The translations under genes were made by a program, and so were the position numbers. Below are positions 22,454 through 47,234 of a stretch of 64,000 nucleotides of DNA, piece after piece. Each line of letters begins with the position of its first letter. Position 1 is the stretch's first letter. The notes under the pieces were generated by a model. That model did not search any database. It worked only from the letters and a program-made list of their open reading frames with translations, and was not told where the DNA came from. This stretch comes from Apostichopus japonicus (lineage: Eukaryota > Echinodermata > Holothuroidea > Aspidochirotida > Stichopodidae), in the NCBI RefSeq assembly GCF_037975245.1, contig NC_092576.1, positions 41,065,611 to 41,129,610 of the forward strand, read 5' to 3'.

Positions 22454-22662
22454 CTGATTTCTTTTAAATTCCTACAACTTGAGGCGTATTTGAAAATGTC
22501 ACTTAGAACTTCTTCACTAAGTTGAAATCCCTTTTGGTGGAACCACAGCTGGCTGACGTCAATCAGTGGTGGTAAACGAACGTCAGTATTCAGAACGATC
22601 TCATTCCGTTCGAGATCAACTGTCTTGAAACATTCATCGAGTGTAAACTTTTTAATTGTAAT
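22454..22662 (-). CDS. gene A exon 9, C-terminal conserved segment
   Basis: The acceptor TTCTCTTTCGCAG is followed by ITIKKFTLDECF and later LPPLIDVSQLWF, SEEVLSDIFKYASSCRNLKEI, then the donor ATCAG|GTAATT (phase 2). The length (209 nt) is identical to gene B exon 9, which has the same motif order. It looks like the start of a C-terminal helical or repeat region. No clear leucine-rich repeat is present within it. Confidence 0.8.
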
Positions 22663-25600
22663 CTGCGAAAGAGAATGAAAGATAAATATACATGAATCAA
22701 AATTTGATTAATGATCCTAAACAATTTTAACATTTGTTCATCAGCTAAGGTATCCTCTCTGCATTTCATAAACCGGAAAATATGATTCCAAACTTTCTAT
22801 CACAAAACGTCAAAACTGATTATGAGTATAATTACTAAGGTACTATGATATTTTACCTCTCTACTGACAGCTATTTTGAGTAGTTGTATCACTGATCTCT
22901 GTAGTATTCTGGTGTCGTGATGGCGAAGCTGTAGGCCTTCTTCTCCAGAACAAAGGTTCCGCACGTTGTCGATGATAGCATCTATGTTCCCACCTTGCTC
23001 AAGAATACATAAAATGGAAAAGGACTCCATCGCTTTCTGACTGACATCCAGATAATCTAAGATTTGTTTTGCAGCTTTTGGCTTGATACCGCATGCAAAT
23101 CGGTAAACATACTGGAGATGAGAAGGCTCTAAATCTTCCAAAATCTGCCATTTTCCTTCTTCATCGTTTTTCCCTGGTGTAATCTTATCTAAAGCATCAG
23201 CTAGATGATGGGCGGCATACCATTCACAGAATAGACTGTGATAGAAACGAACGTGTGAAACGGTCTTCACATGGTCGGAAGCCTGGACCCACGGCTCATT
23301 CGACATTACGACACTTTTCTCTTCTCGTAATATTCCGATGCTTAAGTAATGTTCAAGGAATTCGTTTCCTAGCTTTTGTATAAGAATGTCTTTGCTAATA
23401 TCGGGGTTATATGAGTGTCCGTTGAGATGATCAAAACAAAGTTTGTCCAACACTTCATGAAAATTCTCACTTAACAGTAACATATCAACGTTCTCATCTT
23501 TTAATTTTAGTTTCAAATGACTATGCAGACACGTGATCATGTAGCGGAAGAAACTGGTCACGGAAGTGCAGTTTCTCAGGGCATCACTCTCTAAACTAAG
23601 ATGTGCATACATCACGAAGAAAAGAGGAACCACGCAGAGATCATTAAGAATTGGATTTGCTTCTAGCCATTCTTTAATTGTATTCTCCATGGATTTGTGG
23701 CCGTTGACGGTCACAGCTTTTTGCATGTACTTATCTTGTGCTTCGGTTTTGAAGCCTGTGAGCCTAATAACGTTCGTCCGGGGTGCGTAGTCCTTAGGAC
23801 GTTGAAGCGACCTTGTTGTTAGAATTACTTTACATTCAGGCAGCATCTTGCCGTTGATGATATCATATACATCTGAGTTTTCTTTAGAGTCTCTTTCAGG
23901 ATATTCATCGAATCCATCCAAAATTATCAAGACAGAGGAAGAGTTAGCTATAAAGTCTTTAATATCATTAACAGTAAATGACGAATTCTTCGGTAAGATG
24001 AACATTTTAATTGCTTCATAAATAGACTTTACTCCTTTCAGTTGTCTCAGGCGTATGAAGAGAAATATGTCGATGTCACTCATGAATGACCCTGGAACTT
24101 TGTTGCACCACTCATAAGCAAGTTGTAATGATAGGGTTGATTTACCATATCCTGGTTCTCCTTCAATAATCCAACGATTACCCATCATCTCAGGATGAGT
24201 AAAAATATTGTTGTAAGAATCTAAAGGTTCCCAAGGATTCTCTTTTTTCTTGTTTTTCGACTTGTATTCAATGCCACCTTCAACATACAGTTCATGCACT
24301 GTAAAATTTCCATGTAAGAAAGGGATTGGTTTGACTGCACTGTAAAGGTTTTCGTAGATAGACTTCAGTTGAGAGAGGAAGAGTGAATCTACATAGACAC
24401 AACATAAACATGAAAAAGTTAACGTAAAACGGTTATTGTAAAATATTTCGAGTGTAAGTTCTGTTTTTTGAATATTTTGTTATATATCAGAAGCACGGCC
24501 AGTGTTCGTCAGAATGTATCAGCTTCCACGTGATCGTTACGTAGAAGAGTACTGGTTACCATGACAATAAGTCTCACACCTAAAAGTGTAATCAGCCACC
24601 CATGATCATATGTCAACACCATTTATACTGTTACAGCATTAGCCCAGATATAATCAATAATTAATTTTACCATTCCTCAATGGCTGACAAATTGGAGGGT
24701 CAGGCTCCATACAAGTACTACTGGAAATTCTATAGATGTTGACTTTTAATGACTTATCCACGTGGTGTTAACGCTAAGATAACTGATTGGTTAACTGCCA
24801 ATTCTACCCTCGATATGTGTTTAAAATTGCTATTGTATCAGCTTTTAATATAGTGATATGAAGTTAAAGGAGAATATCATAAACATTAAAATACGAATTA
24901 AAATGTCGTATTAGAATGTAATAATTCAGACAACGGTACCTTGCCTGGTGACCAATGGGACGCGCTGTAGAAGAGGGAAAAACAAAGAATTAAAATGTAC
25001 ACATCTAGATAAATAGAACATGACCTTCTTATGAGGCATAGTTTCAGTTCACGTGTAGTCATTAAAATGTGCACGTCGAGATAAATAGTGATATGACCTT
25101 CCTTTGAGACATATCTTCAGTTCACGAGTTTTCATTGCATATTTTCTTAATGAAATGGCATAAAACTGTTGGCTTCGGTTAGTTGATTTCAATTATATCT
25201 CTTTAGATGTCATTACTTGCATTTTAGTTGGAAGTTACAAACCTCTTCATCTTTCTGTGGTAATTTCGATCGTTGTCTTCCCCCAAATACTGCAAAGAGG
25301 TGAAAAGAAGCACATCTTTGAGCTACTTATCGTATAATTTTTTTTCGCAGATAACAGTACATTTATCAGCTATTACTAGTATCTAGGCTACCAAGCAAAA
25401 AATAACTTAATCATGCTGTGTAAGTGTACGACGGGTACATGACGTCATTATTTGGTAAAATACCTGTGTAAAGAATTCCAGCAACGATTACCACAATGAC
25501 AATGATCAAGATGACGACAACGACGATGATGACAGCTATGCTTGTAGAGGGCTGGGTGGTTTCAGCCGTAGTTTGCCCGGTAGGATCCGGCTTAACTGCA

Positions 25601-28600
25601 GACAAGATCAGCATGAAATACAATCAGTAAAGCTAAAATTATCTTAAAGCAAAGAGTCTGTCATACTCCCTAAAAAAACAAACAAACAAATCCTTTAAAT
25701 CAGTTGGGACTACTCCTTAGGCCTGCAATAACATTTTACAGTTTATGGGACGTCAAGAGTTACTATGAAAAACTATCATTTAGTGGGTTATGGAACCCCA
25801 CTTCCCGCTGGATATTGGGTCTTATGCATTTGAACAGCGAGCAGGCACTATTGTAAGTAATTTAATAAGTTCCGTGTTAACAATACACTGTACTACAATT
25901 GATCTGGGAAACCGTTACTGATGCCCATACTTAGAATCCATTTTGTTACTCTTTATGTAGAACCTACAATGTTATAAATAACACGTTTTTGATGTAAACA
26001 GAATACATAGATCATCTTTCACGTGAGTTCAACTTACTTAGTCCAGGAAATAACAAATCAATTTTCGAGGACAGGTTAAAATGTTTCGCATTAGATCCTA
26101 TGACTCTGCATTCAACAGTTAGTTTCTTTTCAGCCGTTTCTTTCGTCGTGAAATGTGTAGTAAGAAATACGGTAAAGGTTTCGTCATTGGATGTAGTTTT
26201 CAGTTGCTGATCGTGAAGAGATATCATCTTTGTAGAATCTTCGTGGTACACCCTCCACTCTAATTCTACCTCTGGTCTTATGCCCCTCACACTGCATGTC
26301 AGGCTTCCTGTGTAACCCACATCCAGTACACAGTATTGCTTATGTGTGCATCCCTCGACAACAGGATACCCTGGGATGGGGATCACTAAATAATTGAGAA
26401 TGAGCACAGATACAAGGTTGTTATGAAATTGAAGCTATAGTTTCGTTCATTACAATTAAAATAGATTCCACGAATGATTCAGTTAAAATATTACCCCTAA
26501 TACATGATTATGTTCCCTGTGTACGGAACTCTCACTAATCTTTGAATTTGTAAACAATTTGACACTCTTCAGTAGCAGTTTGTAATATATTTTATCACAT
26601 ATTTTTATTCAGATATTTTCAGAAATGTATACTATTGAATGAAAAGAATGGAACACACCTTTGTCTAATAATATTTATAGTTTTAGTCGTATTATAAAGT
26701 GTGAACTCGTGTTAAGCCTGTTAGTATGCTGCCTAATGAATTACTAATATAGCATGTATGTGATAATATTTCATAAGAATTTCTAAGGAAATCAGCTGTT
26801 CAGACTCGAAGCATCATACATCATTAACAGAACAACGCCTGAACATACCGTACACCACAAGATTAACTGTGGTGGTTCCCTCTGTAGTACCGTCATTGTA
26901 TGTACATCTGTATAAACCTTCATGATGTATGTCCACTTGATCTATGATTAAATTCCCCTCTTCGAGTTTATATTCATCTGATACAACGGATGTTTGACCA
27001 TCACCAACAGCATCGATAAGGACAGTAGTATCAGTAGTAATAGCGTTGTCAGTCTGTGTGATCTTCTCCCAAACGAGTAACTGGTGATGTTCGGCATCAC
27101 ATGGAAGTCGAATCTTCTTATTTCGCTCAACTGCTACCTCTCTTGTTTCCAGCGATGGTGATTCTTTCTCTTGGTTATGAACTAGAACTAAAGATTCAGT
27201 TAGATCCAACAAGTTATATTGATCATCAGCTTTACATACTAGCAGTGCTAGATATGATGAGTGTATAAACGGATCATCCACAGATAGGGAGCTTGTCCAT
27301 GAGTTCGCCAGACTTGAATAAGTCGTTTCGTTGTTTACCGCAATATCACCTCCTATGGTTCTAACTAACCAAGTTAACGCCATGCCAGGTCTAGCTTGTT
27401 GTATTCGACATACTATGGGTCTTTCGTGCTGCCATTGAATGTAGCAGACATCCCCAAAGGCGGCACAGTCGTCAATAACAGGGTGTGTAGGTTCCGGTCG
27501 AACTATAGGTTAGAGATGATTACACACATTTTAACTTCCCTAAAGACTTTAAATTATACTTATATAAACAATCTCGGTTATTATAATTGTATAATGTAAG
27601 TAAGAAATATATACAGGTATTATTCAATTGTTCTATGTTTAGATAAACTTATCATGTCTGGTAAAAGAATGACAATAAATAAAATTATCAATCTTGGTCC
27701 TGAATTATTTTTAACATATAGCGTCATAATATCAAACTTATTTAAGTCAGCTCTATTATATATTATTTTACCTTAGAACTTGTCATCCAAGAAAACAATA
27801 TATACAGTGTGAAGTTTAATCTCAACTAAGGACTCAAAGACAGAGTGATGACCAATTATTAACATGTCCACACAAATGCCATTATTAAAAATGTTGTTGG
27901 GATAACCCCATAATAAATAGAATGTGTACTTACTAAAAGTAATAATATTTATTTCATATTCCCGAGGAAGGTCTTGTAGCGTTTCAAATTCAACCACCGA
28001 GAATTTAGCTTCGTGTTCCACCGATACGTTATTGATTACTAAAGATCCATCTGGATCGATGTTGAACTCCCCTGAAGTATATCCGGTACCGTCTACCCCA
28101 TTGCTGCTGTAACTAATCGTTGGAAGTCCATCTTTTACATCTAAGTTAAAATACCAGTGGATGCTAGAGAAATCCTCACTGAAAGAACACACGATCTTCC
28201 CAGACTTCCCAATTTCGAGAACTTGTGGAGTTTTGCAAACATCTTCGTCAGCTTTATCATAAAATGCAAAGATCATAGTGTGAATTATTTTTCGAATTTA
28301 AAGTAAGTTTCTGCTCGGAACTTCCTTCACCGTATAGTCGTTTGCACATTTTGTGAATATTTATATTATTATGATATATGTTACTGAAAAAAGTGCTGTC
28401 GATGTAGCATATGAGACAGTGTCAACTTCTACCTTCGTATTGCCAAAAAGCAATTTACATTTTGGGGTATGTTTCACATGCTGCAGGTACTGTTACGATT
28501 TACAACAACAGAGTTTATGAAAAGGCAAGACACTAGAGAAGTTCTGATAAATGTATTTCCCATGTATTCGCCTATGTAGGTTATACAGTAGAAACAAAAT

Positions 28601-28725
28601 GAAAATAAGAAATAAACGCGAATGCTGTGGGTAGAAATAACGTGGGATTAATAGTTACTCAACTCACCCAATGCAAAACTTGCAAAAATTATGAAAGCTA
28701 CTGTAAGAATCGGTTGCTTTGCCAT
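22454..28725 (-). CDS. gene A: Ig-transmembrane-NACHT receptor
   Basis: Nine minus-strand exons assemble with consistent phases: 28668-28725, 27934-28251, 26849-27502, 26038-26385, 25464-25595, 25243-25289, 24940-24964, 22857-24388 and 22454-22662. The product, about 1,108 residues so far, has a signal peptide (1-19), Ig1 (about 20-125), Ig2-Ig3 (126-343), Ig4 (344-459), a Pro/Thr stalk and one transmembrane helix (about 479-502), a basic juxtamembrane segment, and a NACHT module (P-loop near 605). It predicts a type I plasma-membrane receptor with extracellular Ig domains joined to a cytosolic STAND ATPase. The ATG (GTGATGG context) begins a hydrophobic leader. Exon order and lengths match gene B, which supports the model. 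The last exon ends in phase 2, so at least one more exon is expected. A 455-bp tandem array lies directly upstream. Confidence 0.85.
22857..24388 (-). CDS. gene A exon 8, NACHT ATPase module
   Basis: A single exon of 1,532 nt (phase 1 in, 0 out). After a conserved pre-NACHT stretch (FTVHELYVEGGIEY) it has the Walker A loop GEPGYGKST, Walker B LIILDGFDEYPE with the extra acidic residues typical of NACHT proteins, sensor-1 LTTRS, and a winged-helix part with RFYHSLFCEWYAAHHL followed by LQYVYRFACGI. All key nucleotide-binding residues are present, so ATP binding and oligomerisation typical of STAND ATPases are expected. No stop or frameshift. About 70 percent similar to gene B and clearly but more distantly related to gene E (by eye). 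Confidence 0.95.
24940..24964 (-). CDS. gene A exon 7, 25-nt microexon
   Basis: Bounded by CTTCTACAG and AAG|GTACCG, encoding RVPLVTRQ plus one base. Gene B has a microexon of identical length and phase with related sequence (NVPMVQNA). This conservation and the exact phase join (0 to 1) with the flanking exons are the evidence. It sits in the linker between transmembrane segment and NACHT. Confidence 0.7.
25464..25595 (-). CDS. gene A exon 5, stalk and transmembrane helix
   Basis: A 132-nt phase 1-1 exon: a Pro/Thr/Gln stalk (KPDPTGQTTAETTQPSTS) followed by about 24 uninterrupted hydrophobic residues (IAVIIVVVVILIIVIVVIVA). The next exon (25243-25289) supplies a basic stop-transfer segment, GGRQRSKLPQ, which fixes the topology as extracellular Ig and cytosolic NACHT. 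Confidence 0.85.
26038..26385 (-). CDS. gene A exon 4, Ig-like domain 4
   Basis: A 348-nt phase 1-1 exon. The translation includes VEGCTHKQYCVLDV, GSLTCSVRGIRPEVELEWRV and LTVECRVIGSNAKHF, a C2-like Ig unit with the tryptophan in ELEWRV. The RGIRPEV(E/D)LEWRVYH stretch is nearly invariant between genes A and B, suggesting a structural or binding constraint next to the membrane. Confidence 0.82.
26849..27502 (-). CDS. gene A exon 3, Ig-like domains 2 and 3
   Basis: A 654-nt phase 1-1 exon holding two Ig-like units. The first has a Cys-rich start (DDC, GDVCYIQW, VCRIQ), core LTWLV and closing LLVCKAD. The second has IRLPCD, LLVWEK and the classic HHEGLYRCTYNDG followed by the G strand TTTVNLVVYG. 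Gene B exon 3 (645 nt) aligns throughout. The donor is TACG|GTATGT. Confidence 0.82.
27934..28251 (-). CDS. gene A exon 2, Ig-like domain 1
   Basis: A phase 1-1 exon of 318 nt encoding a V/I-type Ig fold: a first-sheet cysteine in GKIVCSFSEDFSSIHWYF, a core tryptophan and a strand with DGSLVINNVSVEHEAKF. The usual YxC is replaced by VVEFE in the position expected for the second cysteine, so the canonical disulfide appears to be lost. An extra cysteine near the start (DEDVCKTP) may pair differently. Gene B exon 2 has the same pattern (VYEYE). Confidence 0.8.
28668..28725 (-). CDS. gene A exon 1, signal peptide
   Basis: Starts ATGGCAAAGCAACCG and encodes a hydrophobic leader beginning MAKQPILTV and ending near ASFALG, with a phase-1 donor G|GTGAGT. 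The length (58 nt) and phase are identical to gene B exon 1. An acceptor-like TTTTTTTTTCCTCGTGCAG about 20 nt upstream suggests a 5' UTR intron, or that the ATG exon is not the first exon. Confidence 0.8.
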
Positions 28726-28904
28726 CACTTTATCGTAACGGTCTGCACGAGGAAAAAAAAATCAAAATTATCTTTACTGTATTGTATTGTGCTGTTGTGC
28801 TGTGTTATACATTTAGTTAAACTATACTACTGCAGAACGCTTTTGCAAGGTACAAGCTGATATATTATATTTACATATAACCAGCAAAGTCAACTTTCGT
28901 TTCA

Positions 28905-30290
28905 CAAAACACGCGATGAATGCTTGAAAGAGATCAAAGTGCGACAATTTATACAATATGTACGTTATATATGCTGTGTCTGAAACTATATGACCGATAT
29001 ACCGAAATGCGCAGTGGCTCTCTGTAACGTTAATTTCACACAGGTGACAGGGGTAGTATTAACACTATTCAGTAAGAAATTTTACGCTACTGCATTTTAG
29101 TTATTTGCTGGGCTGTAGTCGATTCCACTAGAATCAAGTCCGTGTCCGAGTCTTTCAGGGCACCCAGTTGTTAGTCCAGGCTATGAATTATGCAATGTAA
29201 TCTCATCTACCCGAGTTCCCTGCCTCTGCCCCCCCCCGTATCCCATGTAGTTACATATGTCCATAATATATCTATATATGCTCCTGTGATGTAATATATT
29301 TGAGCAGTTCAACTGGGGTAAGGTGTACACTCCGGTTAGCTGTACCATCAAAACACATGGAAAAGCTGCTTGGAAATACTTGTAATAGATCAAAGTGAGA
29401 CAATGTATAAACACGTACGTTGTTTATGCTATTTTTGAAACTATATGACTGATATACCGAAATGCGCAGTGGCTCTCTGTAACGTTAATTTCACACAGGT
29501 GACAGGGCGTAGTATTAACACTATTCAGTAAGAAATTTTACGCTACTGCATTTTAGTTATTTGCTGGGCTGTAGTCGATTCCACTAGAATCAAGTCCGTG
29601 TCCGTATCCGAGTCTTTCAGGGCACCCAGTTGTTAGTCCAGGCTTTGAATTATGCAATGTAATCTCATCTACCCGAGTTCCCTGCCTCTGCCCCCCGTAT
29701 CCCATGTAGTTACATATGTCCATAATATATCTATATATGCTCCTGTGATGTAATATATTTGAGGAGTTCAACTGGGGTAAGGTGTACACTCCGGTTAGCT
29801 GTACCATCAAAACACATGGAAAAGCTGCTTGGAAATAATAGATCAAAGTGAGACAATGTATAAAACACGTACGTTGTTTATGCTATGTTTGAAACTATAT
29901 GACTGATATACCGAATTGAGCAGTGGCTCTCTGTATCGTTAATTTTACACAGGTGTCTGGGGTAGTTTTAACACTATTCAGTATGAAAAATTACGCTTCT
30001 GCATTTTAGTTATTTGCTGGGCTGTAGTATATTCCACTAGAATCAAGTCCGTGTCCTTGTCCGATTCTTTCCAGGGCACCCAGTTGTTAGTCCAGGCTTT
30101 GAATTATGCAATGTAATCTCATCTACCTGAGTTCCCTGCCTCTGCCTCCCCGTATCCCATGTGGTTACATATGTCCATGTTTTATCTATATATGCTCCTA
30201 TTCTGTAATATATATATCGAGCAGTTCAACTGGAGTAAGGTGTACACTCCCCTTAGCTGTAACAGTAATACACAGGGAGACTCTGCATTT
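28905..30290. repeat. ~455-bp tandem array, 3 copies, upstream of gene A
   Basis: GATCAAAGTG recurs at 28932, 29388 and 29841, with several hundred bases of near-identical sequence after each. Periods are 456 and 453 bp, and the third copy is more diverged. The array begins about 180 bp upstream of the gene A start codon. Open frames inside (for example at 29181-29414 and 29553-29846, near-identical) are repeats of one another, with no independent evidence of translation. Confidence 0.93.
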
Positions 30291-30299
30291 CAGGAACAC

Positions 30300-31780
30300 C
30301 GATGATACATCGATTACACCAACCCACCCTGATTCAAACATAATGGTTGCCCCTCCCCTACGTGTTGTTAAAAATGATTGCTCCAGAACTGCAACACTGG
30401 TTGAGATTCGCTTGAGTCATTTAGTATTACCAACACGACCTGGGGAGTGTGGTAATGGGTAGGGTCGATGGGGTATACAGAAAGCGAAAATGGGGCCTAA
30501 ATATATATGACTTTAGACAGAATCGATATTTTAACGTCTTCGAAGAAACAAAAATCTAGTGCAGTTTTAATGCCTGTTGCTCTTTATACTCTTTGTATCA
30601 GCATCTTCTTTCTACACCAAATATGTACGAACTTTGGGTGGATAGGCTACTTGGAAGAACCTATATGTTAACAAGACAGTAACGTGTGTTGTACACCCAC
30701 TATTATGTATCGTAATTCATAATTCTCTCTCTCTCTCTGGTTTCAGCGTACTGTCATTCTCTGACGCAAATATAACCTTGTTCCATAATTGTTTTCCATA
30801 ATGTTTTTGGCATTAACTTTTGATGAAAAGAATTAACGTCATTTGACGGTGAATGTTTATCAACCATGAGTCAACACCGGCCAAAATCACAGACGCCATG
30901 TTGTCTAGATTCATTTCGGTCACAATAGCATTATGCTTTATTCCTAGTCTTCATTAACTATACCTATTCAATATCTGTTTGATAGGGTACCTTAAAGCGA
31001 GTACTTACTATTAAATATGATCTCTTCTTCTCTTCTTCTGAGAAAATTACTTCGGATATTGGAGACTGGTTCACGACCTGTGCCTGTGGTATATTAACAA
31101 GTACCTCGTAATACTATAACTATATAAAAATCACTGCATTGTTCAGTTAAGGCAACCTAGCGCTCGATCACTGCAAATGCAACATGCATAATCATGAATG
31201 CCACGCGAAGGTCATGTTTACCAAAACCGTTAGTTCAAAATAATAAATAAAAAAATATAATGAAACACGGCACAGCCTGTAGGCTAAAGTCCATTTACTA
31301 ATCTACGATTTTAGTTCTGCAACAAGTGTAGTAAGTGATTGATAAATCCTACAATGGTAATGGTTGCGTTCGTGGCGACGCTAACGGGAAGGGGCACAAC
31401 CAATTATACTTCTGGAGATGGAAAGTGGAAGTGGGAAGTGGGGAAAGATTTCGTCAAGAAAAGCCCCCCCCCCATATGCAGATAGAATATTAAAAAAGAT
31501 AATAATGAACAGTACATAAAGGTATACATGTAAATATGGGAAAACCTATACAGTCAAACAATTATACAACTTGGTGTGAATAGCTGAAACAACTTTGCTT
31601 CTTAACATGCTTCATTTTATGTAAATGTCCTTATAGATCCCTCCCATAGATGACTTTATATATTAGCCTCAATCCCACCCCCAACAACCAACCAACCAAC
31701 CAACCACAATACAAAAGGTATGATCGCGCACTTGTTAAATGTGCATCAGTATCTCTAGTGAATATAATTTACAATATATT
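30300..31780. other. intergenic, nothing recognised
   Basis: Contains a CT microsatellite (about 30725-30738), a C run (31464-31472) and a short (CAAC)n tract (31684-31706). No splice-supported frame. Confidence 0.5.
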
Positions 31781-31787
31781 TCTGTAG

Positions 31788-31927
31788 TGTTAAAGTATTT
31801 GAAAAAGAATGTTACTTCGGTACATCTTTCAAAAGATTATTGCCTTATGGATGACAATGGACGTTTACGTGTCGTTTTCTTAAGGAAGGTTGGACTGAAT
31901 TCCATAATAAGAGGATACTTGAGATAA
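31788..31927 (+). CDS. weak candidate 3' exon
   Basis: The acceptor TATATTTCTGTAG is followed by an open frame (phase-1 entry) with protein-like segments (VTSVHLSKDY, DDNGRLRVVFLRK) to a TGA-type end. No homologue was recognised and no partner exon is assigned. It could belong to an Ig-like gene related to C. Confidence 0.2.
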
Positions 31928-33901: not shown

Positions 33902-34020
33902 TGTTTCTTTCAAGCGAAATCAACCCTTCTGCTTCGTGAACTTTTAAAAGATGAGCTGTATATTTCATGGTTATCGTGTCTTGTATTTTTAGAAAAAGTA
34001 AACTTTTTTTTGCTATTATA

Positions 34021-34342
34021 ATGTCTGCTGCAAAGGTTCTAATTTTCCTATTGTCAACGTTTGTCTTACATCATACATGGGCAAATTCCCGAATAGTGAA
34101 GACCTTTTCCGATTCTGTTTTACTTGAAACTTGTTGCGAGACAACGCAAACGATTAACTGGAAATTTAAAGAAAATTTTCTCTTTTTCAAATGGATTCCA
34201 CTGGAGAATGTTATCAAAGACACTGTTTCGCTTGATGTTAATAGTTCACTATGTATAAGTAACGTATCTCTCTTACATGAAGGCGTCTATCAGTGTATGT
34301 GCAACGATATTTCTGTGAAAAATTACTCATTGGAAGTGGAAG
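34021..34342 (+). CDS. gene C exon 1, signal peptide plus Ig-like domain
   Basis: 107 codons plus one base, donor GGAAG|GTTTGT. Aligned with gene D the conserved residues are the signal peptide, S(D)SV, the CC pair, W-K-F, FF.WIP, IKDT(V/I)SLD, a S.LHEG.YQC.C motif and VKNYSLE. The paired CC and CxC suggest two disulfides across the Ig sandwich. Confidence 0.8.
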
Positions 34343-37300: not shown

Positions 37301-38055
37301 TTTACTAAAAAATTGACCCTCCAAATTCCACTCACAGTTGAAACTAGTGTTTTATAAAGGGTGTTTCTGAGCTAGACAATTTCGAAATTTAATGTTTAGT
37401 TTCATTTAGAAAATATACTACTTAGTGACCAACAGGACAACAGTGAATAACATAAAGTGTAACTTCAGTACGTAGAAAAGTTAACAGAGAATACGTGTTT
37501 ATCTTGTAAAACTATACCAATGCTGCATGTACATGAAGGAAGGTAGTAAGCATCAAAAGAGAGCCATATGCCCAACAAACACACATCTTTTACGGGTGCA
37601 CTCCCCTTCCCCTGTCATACAACAGCCACTTAGTTCCTTGTGTCATAAGTGTTTGTGTCAGCTAATTTAAATTAAAAAGGAAATAATTTTTCGGTGTTAA
37701 TCCGTGAAATGGAACGCAGATAGCGTTGGGCGTTGATCCAAGGACAATGTCATCCAAATTAACGTTTCATATACTTTAAAATTTTCAGCTTACTAAGTTA
37801 GTCGACATACACACTTTGCAAATTCACGACGACAGACACTTGTGTCATCATATTGCCCATATCAAACGTTCTAGAAAACGAAAATGGCAAGCCAAAGTTG
37901 ATGATGAACCGAATTCCTTCATTCCTCGAAAACACGGAAGGCCGCAACCTATCGAAGAAGTCAATGACAATAATGTATTAGCTGATTTATACTCAGCTAC
38001 AACTGTACTGAAGACAACAATAAATAGTTGCCTTCAGAGAATATGTTCATGTTGA
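34021..38055 (+). CDS. gene C: signal peptide + single Cys-rich Ig-like domain protein
   Basis: Exon 1 (34021-34342) has a signal peptide (MSAAKVLIFLLSTFVLHH, cleavage near WANS) and one Ig-like V domain with ETCC, the core INWKF, a D-E strand LCISNVSL and LHEGVYQCMC; its donor is phase 1. Two downstream pieces fit in phase. One is 37118-37209 (after CTGTTTCAG, phase 1 to 0, with NEYSCDG and a NQT glycosylation site). The other is a terminal exon 37789-38055 (after ATTTTCAG, phase 0, with a basic patch KRSRKRKW) with AATAAA signals within 30 nt of its stop. If joined, the product is about 226 residues with no transmembrane helix, so secreted. Exon 1 is solid because gene D encodes a clear paralogue; the two later exons rest on phase and composition only. 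An in-frame ATG at 33967 is a less likely start. Confidence 0.55.
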
Positions 38056-38453
38056 CCTAACATTTACAAAAATAAATAAAAAGAGAGAATATTCGCTGAT
38101 AAAATCTCATAGGAAAGTCAAAGGGTCATTCCATACTTCATCTTGTTTACTTTAAATCTAACTTATGATAACATCCATTTTCGAGATGCAATAAGAAGGA
38201 GAAGACGAATTTACAGCAGTGAAATTTTAAAACTCCCGTTAATGTCAACTTATGTGACTCCACATAACCTTTGATCTGCACCATTGACAATTGATCTAAC
38301 ATACATGCATATACACATATGAATAGTACGTTTCTGATTTAACCAGAAGTAGCTGTATGAGCTTAGTTATCAGTTTATTGTACAAATGTAGCTCAATTTG
38401 AACTTACAATTACTCCGAAATAATCCCGAAAATCTAACGAAAAAAACACTTAC

Positions 38454-38501
38454 CATTTTTTTGTATTCCTGTTCGGTCATGCGGGACGAACCGATGTTTT
38501 T
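38454..38501 (-). CDS. probable short downstream exon of gene B
   Basis: 48 nt with strong signals (TTTGCTTTTCACAG and ATG|GTAAGTG), phase 0-0, encoding KNIGSSRMTEQEYKKM. It follows 38641-38745 in phase. The terminal exon was not found; gene C converges from the left and ends at 38055. Confidence 0.5.
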
Positions 38502-41500
38502 CTGTGAAAAGCAAATATGCACACAATTTATATTACGATAATTCGAATAAGTAGCACGTCTGATTCTTATTGGAAGTATAACACGGATATTTGTGAATCA
38601 ATTTAATCTTATAATCTTATTGTAATAAGAGCACTTTTACCTCATCGTATGTATGTAAATGTGTCATTCCCAATTCATAGAAACCACAAGAAGATTTGAG
38701 TGAGGTTAGTTTTGACTCCAAGGCTATCCAAAGTCCTTTAAGCCACTGAAATATCACTCTAAAGACAACAGCCAGAAGGTGGTTGAAATATGGTACATAA
38801 AGTATCATATCAGGTTTCAACTATTTACACTGATAGATAAAAATTAATAAATACAGCTTGTATCTATTCAGACTCTTACCACCCAATAGCCGGAGTTTAA
38901 ATCTAGATCAAATCGTATTGACGACGGAAACCAACATACTGTAAGGAAAGCGAAAACAAAGACAAGCATGTTACAAGATTTAATCATCACATGTGCGTTT
39001 CCGAAATCATGTATCATTCTAAGCGTTAGGAAAAGCGCGTTGGAAATCTGCTTAAAGCAAGGTCTTCAGTTGGTTTTGATAAATGTCCTGTTTGTACTAA
39101 ACTTAAATATCAAAAGAGCTCTGTAGATTACCAAGCAAAGCTTCAATCAAAATAGTCGAGTAAAGATAAAAGGAGAATTTGTTTTAACTTACTGTGTTTG
39201 CTATGCCACAACAAAAGGACGACAAAATGTTGAGGACTGAAGTTCTAAAATTAATTACTCAAAATTCCTTGATGTGGACACATCATGGCAAGTGACTAAC
39301 TGTAATTAAATCTAATATCTACAAAATGATCAATGCTCGTAAAGTTGTCAAAGTTGATAACCGACCTCAAGAAGTTACTTTAACAAGAAAATCGGTTGGA
39401 TGATCTGTTAATATGTTTCAAAGTAAATAGAGAATTCTATATTTAAGATATAGTAATAAATTTAATGGTATGAAATAGTTCAAATATCATTGAGTTAATC
39501 CATTATCAAGATCTCCAGAGAAACTTCTGTTATAAAGCAGTTCAAATGAGAAAGGAAATGTTTTTCAAGAAAGTGATAAGCCACTTGTCGTCAGTCGCGA
39601 GTACTCGTTTGCTCGTTACAATATATAAAAACCCCTAAATGATACAAAAGGATACAAAAATATGCCTTCTTATCAAATTGCGGTCCCCTAATTGGATAGT
39701 TGCAATTTGTTTGCACCTATTATTACTATGTTTCAAAATGGTAAAAATCATGCCTTTGACATTTTTGGCGCTCAGCTGTCTTAGAACAGGTTTTGCATCG
39801 ACCTTGTAAGGTAATAAGCTGTAAAGGAATCTGAAATTAAGAAAACGGGATAACTTGGTTTTAGAAGTGTCACGATTTGAATTAATATCATCATGTCATT
39901 TACATAGGTGCAGGTGTCACAATTTTCCTTACAAAAATTCAAGGATATAAACTTTTCATTTAGAAAATTTTGTTTACAGACGACGTTAGTTGATATCATC
40001 CTATTGGTTACAAACCTATACCATAAACTCCTCAGTAATGTGTTATCTAAGTGAAATTTAAAGAATCCGATAGCATCTAGTCAATGGACAGATGACAGAC
40101 GAAGTTCGTGGGAAATCTTTATCCTTCATGAATTGTTGACGCTTAAACTCAGTCTTAAACATATATAACTATAAACATGATTATTGCATTCTCTGAGTAA
40201 ACAAATGTGTTATTTTCATGAATTGCTTACGCTAAAACTCAGTCTTAAACATATATAACTATAAACATGATTATTGCATTCTCTGAGTAAACAAATGTGT
40301 TATTTTCATGATATCAAATAATGTTGTAAAGCAAAATTAAATATTAAACATGTTAGCGTTACTGATATACTGTTTTCATACCTGCTTTCTTTAATATTCC
40401 TGCAATGAGAGATATATTTAAAGATGTCTTCCAGAATCTCGTGACTAAACTCCATTTCTTTGTGCTCGAAGGATAATTGGCTGACGTCACATAGTTCTGG
40501 CACGAATACTTCAGAGTTCAAAACGATCGCATTGTTTTCGGTGTCAACTCGTTTGAAAGATTCGATGAGAATAACTTTCGGAATTGTAATCTGTATAACA
40601 AGAAAAACAAAATCCTTTAAGATTGATTTTTATACACCTTACAAAATGAAAACACCGCGAAACTTTCTTGATAAATACGTACTAAAACACTTACGTTACT
40701 ATTGTGCTTTACACAGATAGATACCGAATGATGGCTAAGTGAAGTATCTTAATATACCAAACAAATTATTTAAATGAGTGTTGTCTATGGCAAAATCATT
40801 GACAGTCTAATAATTTTGCATCATATTAAAGAATAAACGTCTTAAAAGAGTAATAATTAATCATATAAACTACAAAACTGTGGTTTTACCTGTCTACTTG
40901 CAGCTAGTTCCAGTATCGTGATGACCGATCTCTGAATTATTTTGTTGTCCTGATCTCTTATTTGCAGAGTTCCTGAGCAAACTTCTCGTAGGTTTTCTAC
41001 AATTTTGTCAACATTTCCAACCTGTTCGAGAATGCATAGAATCGGAAGGGCTTCGATACCCTCCTGGCTTATCTTCAGATGGTCTAGAATATGTTTCGCT
41101 GCAGTTGGTTTAATACCGCATGCAAATCTAACAACGTACTGAAGCTGAATTGGATCCAAATCTTCCAGTATCTCTAACCCATCTTCTTCAAGTTCGTCGT
41201 CTAATGTAACTTTATCCAAGACACTAGCAAGGTGATGGGCTGCATACCACTCACAAAACAGGCTGTGATAAAAACTAATCTTTGAAACGATCTTTACGTG
41301 CTCTGAAGCTTCAATGCCTGGTTGATTGGACATCACAAGGGTTTCTTCTTCTCGTAATATCCCAATAGTTAAGTATTGGTCAAGGAAATCTTTTCCTAGC
41401 TTTTGAACTAAGTCTTCTTTGTCCATGTCAGGATTAAACGAATGACCGTTGAGCTTTGAAAAGCATAACTCGTCAAGCTGTTGATGATTGTTTTCATTTA

Positions 41501-44500
41501 TCTCAAATTTCTCAACGTTCTCATCTTTGAACTTTGATTTCATGTGACTGTGAAGGCACGTGATCATATAACGAAAAAAGCTTGTCATTGAAGTACAGTT
41601 CTTAAAGGCGTCACTCTGTAAACTAAGATGAGCGTACATGACAAAAAATAGTGGAACCACGCAGAGCTCTTTAAGAACAGGATTTTCTTCTAGCCATTCC
41701 TTGATTGGATTTTCGAAGGACTTGTAGCCGTTGATCGTCACAACCTTTTGCAAATATTCTACCTGCGCTTCGGATTTGAATCCTGTGAGCCTAAGATGAT
41801 TAGTCTGCGCTGCGTATTCCTTGGGAAGCCGTGACGATCTTGTTGTTAACAAAACTTTACAATCAGGGAACATTTTTCGTTGAAGAATATTGAATATGTC
41901 CGAGTTCTCCACCTCCTTTTCTGGGTATTCGTCAAAACCATCCAATATGATCATCAAAGAAGGACATTTATCGATGAAACTCTTAATTTCCTCGATAGTG
42001 AATTGAGAATTTGTGGGCAAAATAAACCTCTTGATTGCTTCATAGATTGATGAAACGCCTTTCAATTGTCTTAGTCTGATTAAAAGAAATATGTCTATGG
42101 AGCACAGAGATGATCCTGGAACTTCATGGCACCATTCATAAGCAAGTTGTAGAGCTAGAGTTGACTTACCGTACCCTGGTTCAGCCTCAATTATCCAGCG
42201 ATTACCTCTCAGCTGTGGATGCGTGAACAAATTTTTATAGGAATCAAAGCGTTCCCATTTTTGCTTCATTGCTTGGCCCTTTAATAAGTATTCAATGCCA
42301 CCTTCAACATACAATTCGTGCACGGTGCAGCGATCTTGCATGAACGGTATTGGTTTGATTCCGCTGTAGAGATTTTCGTAGTTTAATTTTAGCTGTGTGA
42401 TGAAGGTTTCCAGTGCATCAGATTCTGAGGAAAAATAACAACCAAATAAATACAATAAAGGACTTATGTCATGGTGATTACCGGAGAATTTGCATAAATT
42501 AGTTTCAACAACTTTATTGAATATGTAATTTAAGATACCGTGTTAGAAAAGGTAGCTCTTATTATTACGGTTCGTTATATAAAAAGTTAATTGAAACTTT
42601 TGGTAGCATAATTTGGCGTTATACGAGTGATGATCACAACTTTACCTGCATTCTGTACCATTGGCACGTTCTGTGGAAAGATAAAAAATGGAAATCATAA
42701 AATGAAATATGGAATGTGAAATATTCTGCAGAGTTTGCAGTACCATCTTCTTGAGTCTAGCAATAAAATTCGTTAACTATTTGATGATGCAGTTAAAGTT
42801 CTTGCTAAGCTCTCCTCAACGTGTAATATATGATCATAAGTTACATATCTTTTGGATCTGTTTCACAATTAAAGTTGAATAATCTTCCATACTCAGCATA
42901 ATAAATATGTATACCTTAGGAACATTTCTTCAATGTTGTGGTAAAGCTAAACTTGCTTAATACGCTTGAACAACTTCTTTTTAATCTGCAATGATTGATG
43001 CTTAAAACATAACCGATGCGAAGATTTGATGAACTTAAGTTACCTCTTCAATGTTTGCTGTGGATACCTGTGGATCTCTCGTCTTTCGATAACCTTCCAG
43101 GAGCAACGAAGAAAAAAAACTTGATACATTTCTATTTATAAATAAAATATACATTCCAAGAAGGTTCGTTCATATACAAAAAGATAGTACATTTCTGTGC
43201 ACCTGTTCGTTAGTAGAGATAAGAAAGAAGGTACTGTAAGGTAATAAATAACATAAAATATACATAAGTTAAACAGTTTATTAAAAGAAGGATTGCTGTT
43301 TAATTGCAGAATGCATTCCCTAGTCATTATTATAAGTTCTTTGCTCCACAAATTGGTTACAATACGTATTCATTATTTCTTTGCTGGGGTGTAAGTCAAA
43401 CTTATATAAGTTAAGTAATGAGACCTTATTTTCTTTTCGATAGCACGAGTGAAAAGGAAGGAAGCAAAAAGAAAACAACAAGACATGAAAGTGTAGAAAA
43501 TCTTGTATAGAAATCAAGAAAGCAGCGTGAGAAAATATTAACAAATTCTGAAAGAACAATTTGTAATTAGTGAATCATTTGTCTGTTGTGAGAACAAAAA
43601 AAAAACAATACCTAAGTAGATGCAACAAGCTCCCATTAGTATACCAACCGCGACGACGAGGATAATGATGAAAACAAAAGTATATTGATTGTTGATTGTA
43701 GGTGGAAGACTACCGTCTGTGTTGACGATTTTGTTAGTTGTCTGTGGTTCTACTGTGTAGAGAATATATGTAGACAGTATATACAGTACATACCATATGA
43801 TGGGAAATGCTTACCCTAATGATATAAATTAGTCAAAATCGAAAATATAATATTGAACATTGAATTTCGTACAACTGTATCTTTATTATTAAAATGAAAT
43901 TGATATGAACTTGTGTAATTTGGAGTCTGGGAATGAACACTTAAATCAATGGGTATTCATGGTAGGAAGGCAGCAGGCATGAAGATAAAATAGATGTAAT
44001 AAACCATAACATAAATTGTAGACATTTTAATATTGAGCATAATTTATGATCTGATTCATGTTAATGGATGTTGAACTAACCTATTCCTTGAAATAATAAT
44101 TCAGCTTTGGAGGTAAGTTGAAAAAGTTTTGCATTTGTTCCTACAGCTCTGCATTCGACAGTTAGTCTGTCATTTGACGTGTCTTTGACAGTGAACTCTG
44201 TCGTAAGGATTATGTCAAATGTGCCGTCAATGGATTTTGTTTTCAGCTGCTTTTGTCCATGGAATGTAATCATCTGTGCAGAGTCGTCGTGGTACACTCT
44301 CCACTCTAAGTCTACCTCTGGCCGTATGCCCTTCACGGCGCACCTTAATATTTCGTTATAGTTTACATCTAGTACACAATAGCGATCCTGAGTACACCCA
44401 TCAATGATGGGATAGTTTGGGATTGGATTTTCTGCAGGAAAGGAAACAAATATGATTGAATTGCTACTCGAGTATTGATATATAACTACGATTGACTGAT

Positions 44501-47234
44501 GAAACTCTGATTTGAAATTCTAAATAAAAGAGGGGGGGGGGGGCGGAGGGGCGTGGGGATACAGACAGCGATCGTCGTACATAAAAATAATAGCATCGTA
44601 GCGAGGTTATTAAAACCATTGTCATCCGCAACTAGGTATAGCACTTACCATATACAACGAGATTGAATAACATGACACCTCCCATAGTACCGTGAGTGTA
44701 TGTGCACATGTATATTCCCTCGTGTCTCAGTTGTACATCACGTAATATTAAATTCCCTTCTCGTAACTCATAATCTCTTGATATTACGTATGTTGCATTG
44801 GCTGTATCCACATCGACAACAACAGGTGTGCTAATATTGTCCTCTGTAGAGATCATTTCCCAGACGAGAAGCAAATGATGACCATCAATGCATGGAAGCT
44901 CTATCTTCTCGTTTCGCGCAACTGATACTTCTGTTGTATCAACCTGGGATGTTTCCTTCCCTTTGTTATGAACCAAAGTCAATGCCTCGCTATGCACCAG
45001 CAAATTAAGCGGATCGGCGGCTTTACAAACGAGTAGAGACAGGTATGATGATTGTATGAAAGGTTCAGTAACAGTCAGGAAACTTGTCCACGTGCTCGTC
45101 TTGTGTTTGAAAATGGTTATGTTGTTTAATTGTATGTAACCTTCTACAGTGTTGGCCAGCCATGTTAATGACATGGCAGGTCTAGCTTCCTGCATTCGAC
45201 ACGTTATTGATCGTCCCTGTTTCCATTGGATATAACATACGCTACTTTGTATGTCACAATCGTCAACAACAGGGAAAGGTGGGTTCGGCCGAACTAGAAA
45301 TTTGGAGATGAAAGAAAAGATAAAGACGGATTTTCAGTAAAACTGGTAGGTGATGCATACTTTATAGTGGACCATTTTATTGGAGGTTTAACTGCAAGCC
45401 TTAGTTTTCATACCACGTTTCCAGGAAATTGGATCCCAGTATCATTTGTCTCGACGGCCTTTTTCTTTCGGAACACATTTTGGGCTATAACACTTACTTA
45501 CCACATCTTCTAGATAGTCCTCCTCTCACATTAGATCAGGTATTATTTAGGCCTACTTATTGTAATAACATGCGAATTAACTAATAAACAATACCAACAA
45601 TTTTGGAGGTGTCAAATAATCTATAGAATATAGTTTTATGTCTTCAATGAACAGTCAGGTTCATGATATTCGAGGTAGACAATGATTGCTAAACACTTTG
45701 AAGGTTTGAATATAATGGATGTTATGCTCACTGTAGGACTTATATCAATATAAATATCTTGCTAGGCTGTTCTGATCAGTTTTGCATTCATACATAGTGA
45801 ATCTGGTTTCATGTCCGACAGACACGTTCTTGATTATGTACTTTTGTGTAGAGCTTATGATGTCAATAATTATAATAAAATTCATCAATCCATTACTATG
45901 GCTTCATATTACGTTGAATCATGAGGACTCATAATTTTCGAATTATATTCAAAGTTAAAATAAAGTAAATAAGTTGTCTCATATATAAAAAGAAGTAAAA
46001 GATACAATGGTTTGAATCCAGTAAATATATAGTATTTACTTACTATAGGTAATTAGATCGATATCATGCCTTGCTAGGCTTTCCTGATCCGTTTCATATT
46101 CATACACCGTGAATTTGATTTCGTGTTCCACCGATACGTTGTTGATTATTAATGATCCATCTGATCGGATGTCGAATTCCCCTGAGTCATAACCTGCCCC
46201 TTCAGCATTTTGGTTAGTGATGAGGCTTACTGTTGCTGGACCGTCTGTTATGGTAAGCTTATAATACCAATGAATGCTAGAGAAGTTATCACTGAAGCTA
46301 CAAACAATCGTCCCTGTTTTTCCAATCTCAAGATACTGAGGAGATTTACATCCATTTTGGGCAGCTGTTAGGTAAGGAAATACAATATCATAGTTCATAA
46401 TACGTCTTAGGATTTGCAAATGTTGAAAAAAAAAAACTCTTGTTTAAGAGACTGAAGACTTTAACTCCAAACAAATCGTTAAGTCCTTATCGATTCTCAA
46501 TCAGATTCCGTGGTGATAATAATATTCATGGATCAATTGAAAACCTGATAGACAAGATGGCAATCCATGGAGTTGTAGATCTCATGCCTTCTATAATGGA
46601 ATGGATCTACATTGATCTTTGCCCTTGACCTTTGAAAACTACATAAATACTATTTTCAAATTTAACTTATGATTTTCTAGATATCTTGTAGTTAAATTAC
46701 TTTTTCCAACGAACTGACAAGCAGAAAATGGCAGAAAACAGTTTTGGGGTATTTGAACTTTTGATTTACATAATACCTCTAAGGATTATTAAAAAAGGCG
46801 TTAAAGACTAAAGACTTTAACTACCATTGTTAAGTCGATAAGTCTTTGTCGATTTTCAATTATATTTCTAGGTGCTAATAATATTCATAGATCGATTGAA
46901 AACAAAATGGAAAAATTTGTATTTTCTTTTATTTCAGCTATTGAACTTAATTGTAACATATATAGTGCACATATCCAAACCATATCAAATCTTATAGAAT
47001 ATATTATTACTGTTGATACTACGGATTCTTGGTATGGTCAGTTCGACGCATTAACTTTATACTACTTACTATGGCTTTGACGACAAACTAATTTAATAAC
47101 AGGTCAGCACATAGGAAGTTGACATAGGAAGTTGAAGTATGACTATGTGAAAACATTACTTTGGATAGTTACTCACCTAAGGAAATATTAGCAAGAACCA
47201 TGAGAAATATAGCCTGTGCTGCCTTATTTGCCAT
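38454..47234 (-). CDS. gene B: Ig-transmembrane-NACHT receptor
   Basis: Paralogue of gene A. Minus-strand exons with matching phases: 47177-47234 (signal peptide), 46044-46364 (Ig1), 44649-45293 (Ig2-Ig3), 44081-44431 (Ig4), 43612-43752 (stalk and transmembrane helix), 43044-43093 (basic juxtamembrane), 42646-42670 (microexon), 40890-42424 (NACHT) and 40382-40590. Together about 1,112 residues. Further downstream minus exons are likely: 38641-38745 (35 codons, phase 0-0) and 38454-38501 (16 codons, phase 0-0), with a possible 28-nt linker exon 39803-39830 that would correct phase 2 to 0. The predicted role is a type I membrane receptor linking extracellular Ig recognition to a cytosolic STAND ATPase. 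The exons before 40382 are strongly supported by conservation with gene A; the last three are assigned by splice signals and phase only. No stop codon was located. Confidence 0.83.
38641..38745 (-). CDS. probable downstream exon of gene B
   Basis: Acceptor GATATTTCAG and donor GATGAG|GTAAAAG bound 35 codons in phase 0-0 (WLKGLWIALESKLTS ... ELGMTHLHTYDE). The splice signals are good and it lies on the gene B strand 1.6 kb downstream of exon 9. No domain is recognised. Confidence 0.5.
39803..39830 (-). CDS. possible 28-nt linker exon of gene B
   Basis: After the acceptor TTTTCTTAATTTCAG, 28 nt end at a weak donor (CAAG|GTCGAT). The length converts phase 2 to phase 0, exactly what is needed between 40382 and 38745. 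No homologue in gene A, so this is a hypothesis. Confidence 0.25.
40126..40310. repeat. 90-bp tandem duplication
   Basis: Two nearly identical 90-bp units (AGTCTTAAACATATATAACT at 40151 and 40241), with the start of a third (TTCATGA). It lies in the gene B intron just downstream of exon 9. Confidence 0.92.
40382..40590 (-). CDS. gene B exon 9, C-terminal conserved segment
   Basis: 209 nt. ITIPKVILIESF, then VPELCDVSQLSFEHK, SHEILEDIFKYISHCRNIKES and donor GCAG|GTATG in phase 2. Homologous to gene A exon 9. Without splicing, the frame would continue for about 20 residues to a TGA. Confidence 0.8.
40890..42424 (-). CDS. gene B exon 8, NACHT ATPase module
   Basis: 1,535 nt, one exon. Pre-NACHT CTVHELYVEGGIEYL, Walker A EPGYGKSTLALQLAYEW, Walker B MIILDGFDEYPE, sensor LLTTRS and winged-helix SFYHSLFCEWYAAHHL, followed by LQYVVRFACGIKPTAAKHIL. 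Intact and with all expected catalytic motifs. The exon ends ASRQ|GTAAAA in phase 0. Confidence 0.95.
42646..42670 (-). CDS. gene B exon 7, 25-nt microexon
   Basis: Acceptor CTTTCCACAG, sequence encoding NVPMVQNA plus one base, donor GCAG|GTAAAG. Same length and phase as gene A exon 7. Confidence 0.72.
43612..43752 (-). CDS. gene B exon 5, stalk and transmembrane helix
   Basis: 141 nt, phase 1-1. A Thr/Asn/Pro stalk, then a hydrophobic helix FVFIIILVVAVGILMGACCI. The following exon (43044-43093) gives GYRKTRDPQ, basic and so cytosolic. The two cysteines at the inner leaflet could be palmitoylated (inference). Confidence 0.83.
44081..44431 (-). CDS. gene B exon 4, Ig-like domain 4
   Basis: 351 nt, phase 1-1, with acceptor TTCCTGCAG. 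Contains DGCTQDRYCVLDV, GIRPEVDLEWRVYH and LTVECRAVGTNAKLF. The membrane-proximal Ig domain. Confidence 0.83.
44531..44560. repeat. G-rich tract in gene B intron
   Basis: A run of 12 G followed by CGGAGGGGCGTGGGG, with quadruplex-forming potential, between the Ig3 and Ig4 exons. Confidence 0.7.
44649..45293 (-). CDS. gene B exon 3, Ig-like domains 2 and 3
   Basis: 645 nt, phase 1-1. The first unit has VVDDCD, SVCYIQW, ITCRMQEARP, LTWLA and LLVCKAAD. The second has IELPCIDGHHLLLVWE and LRHEGIYMCTYTHG before the donor TATG|GTAAGT. Confidence 0.83.
45741..45834 (-). pseudogene. relic copy of the Ig1 exon 3' half, inside gene B
   Basis: The minus strand encodes IKNVSVGHETRFTMYECKT then DQNSLARYLY and a stop, matching the end of gene B exon 2 (INNVSVEHEIKFTVYEYET ... 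DQESLARHD). It lies in the intron between Ig1 and Ig2. No acceptor or full domain upstream, and the donor position is lost, so it appears to be a decayed partial exon duplicate. It still carries a YEC at the position where exon 2 now has YEY. Confidence 0.75.
46044..46364 (-). CDS. gene B exon 2, Ig-like domain 1
   Basis: 321 nt, phase 1-1. GTIVCSFSDNFSSIHWYYKL, DGSLIINNVSVEHEIKF and VYEYET parallel gene A exon 2, including the absent second canonical cysteine and the extra N-terminal cysteine (NGCKSP). Confidence 0.82.
46440..46935. repeat. ~357-bp tandem duplication in gene B intron 1
   Basis: AAGACTTTAACT occurs at 46454 and 46811. Parallel segments (TAATAATATTCATRGATC.ATTGAAAAC) follow each. 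The copies are diverged and the open frame in the first is not conserved in the second. Confidence 0.7.
47177..47234 (-). CDS. gene B exon 1, signal peptide
   Basis: ATG in strong context (AAAATGG) encoding MANKAAQAIFLMVLANISLG, with donor G|GTGAGT in phase 1. Same 58-nt length as gene A exon 1. Confidence 0.82.

Follow-up and report, generated by a model that had tools for sequence, protein, structure and literature searches.

The stretch of DNA described here (the window, C16:41065611-41129610) comprises 64,000 nucleotides of the sea cucumber Apostichopus japonicus and carries, in tandem on its minus strand, two genes, A (28725-22454) and B (47234-40382), the spans running to the exon after the NACHT. 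Each is predicted to encode a receptor in which extracellular immunoglobulin (Ig) modules, one transmembrane segment and an intracellular NACHT ATPase form a single unit, related to the published receptor AjNLRC4 of the same species. That arrangement had been proposed in an earlier note on this DNA, and it is borne out by joined reading frames that are open throughout and by Pfam NACHT and V-set matches that exceed their cut-offs. The whole-genome searches reported below covered the 671,581,487-base assembly (35 contigs), and all family counts derived from them are lower bounds.

Exon structure, domains and constraint of genes A and B

The exons of both genes are as follows; signal peptides were judged by eye and by hydropathy.

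Gene A
28668..28725, minus strand: exon 1, signal peptide MAKQPILTVAFIIFASFAL, donor phase 1 (splice model)
27934..28251, minus strand: exon 2, Ig1 (splice model, Pfam)
26849..27502, minus strand: exon 3, Ig2 and Ig3 (splice model, Pfam)
26038..26385, minus strand: exon 4, Ig4 (splice model, Pfam on the lone exon)
25464..25595, minus strand: exon 5, stalk and transmembrane helix (peak hydropathy 4.18)
25243..25289, minus strand: exon 6 (P1), basic stop-transfer segment FGGRQRSKLPQKDEE (splice-site model)
24940..24964, minus strand: exon 7 (P2), 25-nt mini-exon RVPLVTRQ (detected under relaxed criteria only; similar to NVPMVQNA of B)
22857..24388, minus strand: exon 8, NACHT with helical and winged-helix parts (Pfam, homology)
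22454..22662, minus strand: exon 9 (C1), 69 residues, by eye like a leucine-rich repeat (LRR), with a phase-2 donor at its end in common with B
20723..20790, minus strand: candidate last exon, IWYSSINCYSLDMDSGTWQVR and stop (acceptor phase and residues before the stop as in B and the AjNLRC4 locus)

Gene B
47177..47234, minus strand: exon 1, signal peptide MANKAAQAIFLMVLANISL (splice model)
46044..46364, minus strand: exon 2, Ig1 (splice model)
44649..45293, minus strand: exon 3, Ig2 and Ig3 (splice model, Pfam)
44081..44431, minus strand: exon 4, Ig4 (splice model)
43612..43752, minus strand: exon 5, stalk and transmembrane helix (hydropathy, splice model)
43044..43093, minus strand: exon 6 (P1), basic stop-transfer segment YRKTRDPQVSTANIEE (splice-site model)
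42646..42670, minus strand: exon 7 (P2), NVPMVQNA (splice-site model)
40890..42424, minus strand: exon 8, NACHT (Pfam, homology)
40382..40590, minus strand: exon 9 (C1; splice model, donor in common with A)
38868..38938, minus strand: candidate last exon, CWFPSSIRFDLDLNSGYWVVRV and stop (counterpart in A and the AjNLRC4 locus)

Enumeration of splice sites left a single consistent path in each gene, with GT/AG borders at all modelled introns and no stops. The two genes match exon by exon, as the earlier note had described, in order, closely in phase and nearly in length (A/B, in nucleotides: signal peptide 58/58, Ig1 318/321, Ig2-3 654/645, Ig4 348/351, transmembrane 132/141, P1 47/50, P2 25/25, NACHT 1532/1535, C1 209/209). 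The exons and coordinates given in that note hold, and the two mini-exons P1 and P2, located between the transmembrane and NACHT exons, were missing from it; with them the reading frame is continuous, and the proteins joined up to C1 measure 1107 residues in A and 1111 in B. On these models, A and B are confirmed as intact, collinear genes with a signal peptide, Ig-like modules, one transmembrane segment, a basic exon and a NACHT. The intron that follows Ig1 in gene B also contains a partial Ig1-like remnant on the minus strand (45754-45858; 60% over 35 residues).

The 3' ends are less clear. Without splicing past C1, A would stop at once (KEIR and stop) and B after 24 residues, and the phase-2 donor that both genes have after C1 suggests that both probably continue, so that position 22454 is probably a shared donor rather than the end of gene A. 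The candidate last exons of A, B and the AjNLRC4 locus agree in acceptor phase and resemble one another in the residues that precede the stop; their phase implies at least one further exon after C1, and an exon joining C1 to the candidate last exon was searched for in A and B and not found. Judging by AjNLR-new, a second published receptor of this species (1197 residues), there would be room for about 90 more residues beyond C1.

Searches of the joined models with Ig and NACHT hidden Markov models, a check named in the earlier note, gave NACHT matches of 55.6 bits in A (residues 600-751) and 55.3 bits in B (608-758; cut-off 26.7), as well as V-set matches of 40.0 bits in A (246-342) and 32.6 bits in B (247-327; cut-off 26), for which Ig3 is the best stretch. 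The four Ig-like domains that had been claimed for each protein are thus supported for Ig3 in both genes, and also for Ig1 of A (Pfam ig, 24.1 bits against a cut-off of 21.8, residues 29-100 of the joined protein) and Ig4 of A, whose exon on its own matches C1-set (23.1, cut-off 21), a family not listed for the joined protein. Ig2 falls slightly under its cut-off (C2-set_2, 20.3 of 21, in the joined protein of B), and the lone Ig4 exon of B matched no Pfam family. Given this mixed support, four Ig modules per receptor are likely, each one of them not being proven.

The NACHT of A carries the Walker A and B motifs GEPGYGKST and LDGFDEY. A profile of the NACHT exon found NLRC4 as its best match in the PDB (9.8e-10), followed by NLRP3 (2.2e-5), and a Foldseek search with a weak model of the domain (pLDDT 50), used as support only, retrieved NAIP5 (1.1e-7), NOD2 (1.8e-6) and NLRC4 (6.2e-5). 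Vertebrate NLRs are cytosolic proteins with a CARD, PYD or BIR effector and an LRR sensor. A and B resemble the vertebrate proteins (NLRC4, NAIP, NOD2) in having a NACHT with helical and winged-helix parts, and differ from them in that an Ig ectodomain and a transmembrane segment take the place of effector and sensor. The joined models gave no Pfam match to an N-terminal CARD, PYD or DEATH domain and none to LRR, C1 being LRR-like by eye and the 3' end incomplete. TM segments have also been described in the NLR architectures of sponges (Dysidea avara, Amphimedon); in the available part of that report, no Ig ectodomain joined to a NACHT is described (PMC12909245).

Between A and B, the ratio of nonsynonymous to synonymous substitution (dN/dS) is 0.20 in Ig1, 0.24 in Ig2-3, 0.25 in Ig4, 0.095 in the NACHT and 0.24 in C1. 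These are rough NG86 estimates with dS above 1 in all five exons tested, and they indicate purifying constraint in each of them. A close group of 11 loci gave 0.40-0.45 for the Ig exons (Ig1 from 4 loci only) and 0.32 for the NACHT. Positive selection on the Ig exons was also considered and is not seen in these pairwise averages, which are blind to single sites.

AjNLRC4 and the receptor family in the genome

The earlier note was aware of no described family with this layout, a point on which the literature corrects it. AjNLRC4 was published in 2021 as a coelomocyte membrane receptor of A. japonicus with Ig, transmembrane and NACHT regions (PMC8699970), and AjNLR-new in 2026 as another membrane receptor of the same composition, in a report whose available text mentions several such genes (PMC13133943); the expansion of NLR-annotated genes in this species is likewise already in print (PMC13228809, citing the first genome). 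The published residues of AjNLRC4 are Ig-like 31-132, Ig 251-353, transmembrane 483-503, NACHT 600-757 and a second transmembrane segment at 776-795, and the same report describes an Ig part that binds bacteria, dimerisation, internalisation after Vibrio challenge, and less phagocytosis upon knockdown (PMC8699970).

The gene for AjNLRC4 can be located through its published primers. With up to three mismatches allowed, primer EX-F has a sole site in the genome, C16:4497304 (1 mismatch), and from there to 4499141 the primers follow in order, EX-R with 1 mismatch and qF and qR exact. When this locus is modelled by the exon plan of A and B, the EX-F site falls at residue 31 and the motif LRTD at 177; hydropathy peaks at 482-502 and a second time at 774-794, and the Walker A segment starts at 599, all of which agree with the published numbers within two residues. 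The small interfering RNA used against AjNLRC4 spans the junction of the Ig4 and transmembrane exons, with 17 of 19 bases matching. The cDNA-based numbering and the primers fit one transcript with the exon plan of A and B, which speaks, only indirectly, against separate mRNAs for the Ig/transmembrane and NACHT exons of A and B, the refuting case named in the earlier note. The primer order, numbering and interfering RNA together identify AjNLRC4 as the gene at this locus and as a paralogue of A and B.

AjNLRC4 (MN607598) shares with A and B the chromosome and the plan signal peptide-Ig1-Ig2-3-Ig4-transmembrane-mini-exons-NACHT-C1, at identities of 37, 29, 34 and 43% to A and 39, 26, 32 and 39% to B (Ig1, Ig2-3, Ig4 and NACHT, respectively); it differs in being a separate gene some 36.6 Mb distant and in carrying LRTD. 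In a NACHT tree A and B are sisters (support 1.00), and their link to AjNLRC4 is weak (0.55). AjNLR-new (PIK48001.1), compared here by description only, also joins Ig, transmembrane and NACHT regions in one protein of similar size. By exon plan and homology, then, A and B are new germline paralogues of AjNLRC4 within a kind of receptor already published.

The layout recurs throughout the genome. Pfam NACHT was found at 106 places or more (which do not include A, B or the window's third NACHT gene, described below) and the NACHT of B matched at least 84, which together make at least 167 distinct places; the Ig4 query matched at least 148. An Ig4 exon lies on the same strand within 10 kb upstream of 69 of the 167 NACHT places, against 0, 0 and 0 in the three control orientations (downstream on the same strand, upstream and downstream on the opposite one) and against a mean of 0.99 and a maximum of 4 pairings in 200 runs with shuffled positions. 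At a limit of 15 kb the counts are 72 in order and 1, 0 and 2 in the controls. In at least 53 of the 69 the Ig4 is open (43 on C16, seven on C12 and one each on C7, C10 and C21), and in the other 16, all on C7, it has in-frame stops. Taken together, the purifying constraint between A and B and the recurrence of their layout make the observation more than chance. With the NACHT of B as query, three more close relatives were found on C16, at 41.66, 40.94 and 36.06 Mb (65, 64 and 61% identical to B).

Twenty-five loci (L011-L035), a non-random choice from the 106 Pfam NACHT places, were fetched. A same-strand Ig4 match precedes the NACHT in 18 of 20 on C16 and in 4 of 5 elsewhere, counting L028, whose Ig4 is at the edge of the locus, and L031, whose Ig4 is a C7 copy with stops. 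All 20 loci with both Ig4 and NACHT models also have a transmembrane-like exon (permissive search, that of B corrected by hand), and among 13 loci inspected by eye for the mini-exons, P1 was recognised in 11 (one from an added search) and P2 in 10 (one under relaxed criteria).

Two groups of loci depart from this pattern. The stops in the Ig4 of the 16 C7 loci are of similar types and the NACHT match downstream is free of them (for example in L031); this group is perhaps a lineage that is losing its ectodomain. At C16:8.9-9.4 and 0.3-0.9 Mb there are clusters of several Ig4-like exons at spacings of a few kb, none of them near a listed NACHT; they are perhaps multi-Ig genes that lack a NACHT.

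Proposed working, topology and alternative readings

The exon plan, frame, constraint, family membership and topology signals of A and B can be read from the DNA itself. Surface location, bacterial binding, dimerisation, internalisation and the effect on phagocytosis are properties of AjNLRC4, from which we infer, by analogy, all function of A and B; ATPase activity and NACHT oligomerisation would likewise be expected of the family as a whole. With these qualifications, it is probable that A and B are type I single-pass paralogues of AjNLRC4 at the cell surface. The signal peptide and four Ig modules would face outside, one helix and the basic exon would anchor the protein, and a NACHT like that of NAIP, NLRC4 and NOD2, with intact Walker motifs, would lie within the cell. 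Microbial surfaces would cluster the ectodomains and so bring the NACHT modules together, ATP-dependent oligomerisation at the membrane would be followed by internalisation, and the result would be actin-driven uptake of the bacterium. A further branch, which stems from a 2025 report that the Ig part of AjNLRC4 binds caspase-1, with LRTD (177-180) as the proposed site (PMC11932488), deserves little weight for A and B, since they lack the motif and their Ig part would be out of reach of cytosolic caspase-1, unless the topology changes after uptake.

Several observations weigh against this proposal. A and B are known here from genomic sequence, and their models are incomplete at the 3' end. For 98 of the 167 NACHT places, the 10 kb upstream contain no Ig4 exon, and structure prediction of Ig2-3 with AlphaFold (pLDDT 33) did not confirm the fold. 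The LRTD motif, judged by eye, occurs in AjNLRC4 only, and 20 of 21 Ig2-3 exons, those of A and B included, have no counterpart at that position. For AjNLR-new the opposite topology was reported, together with localisation and binding experiments (PMC13133943). Finally, the published primer IN-F for the "intracellular domain" has its only match, an exact one with up to two mismatches allowed, at C14:1474164, which is not in a NACHT gene and lies some 1.2 kb away from a ZZ-finger exon, presumably of a p62/SQSTM1-like gene. This placement makes the published actin-binding claim weaker, and it may reflect an error in the primer table.

Among the alternatives, the one that survives best is a different topology, either double-pass, as published for AjNLRC4, or with the NACHT outside and the Ig part inside, as the authors of AjNLR-new place them. 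It is backed by SMART and TMHMM predictions and by the binding of antibodies or recombinant fragments (PMC8699970, PMC13133943). The published second helix of AjNLRC4 covers DLCQIPLFFVLFAHITF, around PLFFVLFAH; in the PDB profile alignment this segment lies opposite RNLMKTPLFVVITCAIQM of the NACHT module of NLRC4, and A and B retain it, as does the third NACHT gene. NLRC4 is a soluble cytosolic protein. The alignment thus suggests that the segment at 776-795 belongs to the NACHT module as one of its helices, and single-pass receptors are the likelier reading. The N-terminal hydrophobic stretch, in an exon of its own, reads as a signal peptide, and the exon following the transmembrane one is basic; the inverted topology of AjNLR-new may stem from a signal peptide that was taken for a membrane helix. 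We consider both other topologies unlikely.

A second possibility is that A and B, as copies within an array that is expanding, are in decay or not expressed, for which the stop-bearing Ig4 exons of the C7 loci and the Ig1-like remnant within gene B could be cited. It is very improbable in view of the absence of stops, the GT/AG borders at all modelled introns and a dN/dS of 0.095-0.25 with dS above 1. The least likely is that the Ig/transmembrane and NACHT exons belong to two adjacent genes misread as one, as the genomic basis of the models, the ease of misjoining between transmembrane and NACHT, where the exons are tiny and the introns add up to about 1 kb, and the NACHT places that lack an Ig4 might suggest. 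The order of exons in the fetched C16 loci, the recurrent mini-exons and the published numbering of AjNLRC4, continuous through Ig, transmembrane and NACHT in the available text (PMC8699970), all speak against this explanation.

Divergent Ig partners and the third NACHT gene

Each of the two receptor genes has a neighbour on the opposite strand, and a further NACHT lies near the end of the window:

34021..34342, plus strand: partner exon D, signal peptide and V-type Ig (under the Pfam cut-off), head-to-head with gene A, 5296 bp from ATG to ATG
50501..50828, plus strand: partner exon C', signal peptide and V-type Ig (under the Pfam cut-off), head-to-head with gene B, 3267 bp from ATG to ATG
61979..63495, plus strand: NACHT exon of the third NACHT gene (C-type; Pfam, homology)

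D and C' share 48% identity, at a dN/dS of 0.33 and a dS of 1.13, which is consistent with receptor and partner having been duplicated together. The nearest partner exon lies 8.0 kb from the Ig4 exon in A, 6.4 kb in B and 12.5 kb in AjNLRC4. A second exon of D and C' was searched for and not found. In L018 the partner has a second Ig-like exon with a good donor, with no further exons found in about 1.9 kb, and in L030 the second exon of the partner carries a stop; the modelled start codons of receptor and partner are 707 bp apart in the former and 710 bp in the latter. Local tandem duplications were noted at 5077-6764 and 28919-30286 of the window, the second between gene A and D.

A divergent Ig partner recurs beside many receptors across paralogues, A and B included. 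Searches with C' gave at least 68 matches and those with the L018 partner exon at least 64, which amount to at least 85 places. The statistics were based on 132 open Ig4 exons (excluding the 16 stop-bearing ones on C7), 26 of which have a C'-type match within 8 kb, in all 26 cases divergent and on the 5' side. Orientation was counted for the 56 open Ig4 exons that are followed by a listed NACHT within 11 kb. Within 10 kb of these there are 25 head-to-head cases (24 distinct partners), one on the opposite strand at the 3' side and none on the same strand; two C12 genes each give two Ig4 exons, hence a shared partner in the counts. When the limit is extended to 60 kb, the nearest partner is head-to-head in 38, on the opposite strand at the 3' side in 4 and absent in 14, and if any partner is counted the figures are 38 head-to-head, 11 on the opposite strand at the 3' side and 2 on the same strand at the 3' side.

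The notion of a free-standing partner has to be weighed against another placement. C' and, in the array next to the window, two partner copies with stops are each followed on their own strand by a C-type NACHT (at 11.5, 4.5 and 4.4 kb, respectively), so that C' may be part of the third NACHT gene instead of a partner in its own right. Among 78 partner places on C16, a NACHT of the Pfam or B-query lists lies on the opposite strand within 20 kb in 24 cases on the 5' side and in 2 on the 3' side, and a C-type NACHT follows on the same strand in 3 cases within 20 kb and 5 within 30 kb, the 3 being C' itself and the two copies with stops. The idea that partner exons in general begin a second NACHT gene was accordingly set aside, with only 3 of 78 places fitting; the NACHT lists are lower bounds, so the matter is not closed.

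The third NACHT gene is a member of another large family, with at least 85 places listed, many of them on C17, C7, C22 and C12. No Ig4, other Ig or transmembrane exon was found in a search upstream of 61979, and an Ig4 exon lies within 10 kb upstream in none of 35 C16 places of this family (34 from its own search and one from the B-query list). It is the first of an 11-copy array on the plus strand (C16:41.13-41.56 Mb), in which nine of the other copies are 86-89% identical to it and one 77%; 4 of these 10 carry stops. Just upstream of its exon, positions 58250-61511 contain duplicated stretches (86% and 76% DNA identity) with open frames of 114, 108 and 97 residues, the latter two without a Pfam match.

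Among the papers listed by a literature search, none describes a receptor/Ig-partner pairing in its title or the opening of its abstract. The pair may be a unit of the family, co-duplicated and perhaps co-expressed, in which the V-type Ig product would be a co-receptor, a ligand-binding subunit or an inhibitor; with some two dozen cases, mostly on one chromosome, we put this forward tentatively. In plants, paired NLRs are known in which an immune receptor gene lies head-to-head with a partner gene. The divergent placement is alike in both systems; in the plant pairs both members are NLRs, whereas the sea-cucumber partner is an Ig exon that has a same-strand NACHT within 20 kb downstream in just the three C16 cases mentioned.

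The genome of A. japonicus would thus hold a germline repertoire of surface Ig receptors with their own NLR-type ATPase that extends well beyond the two published members, and the idea that an animal without antibodies uses diversified membrane NLRs for phagocytosis becomes testable. The single-pass reading bears on the two published topology models, those of AjNLRC4 and AjNLR-new. The recurrent divergent Ig partner is the most interesting point of the family: if functional, it would represent a paired-receptor system of the kind known from plants and provide a candidate for the co-worker of the receptor.

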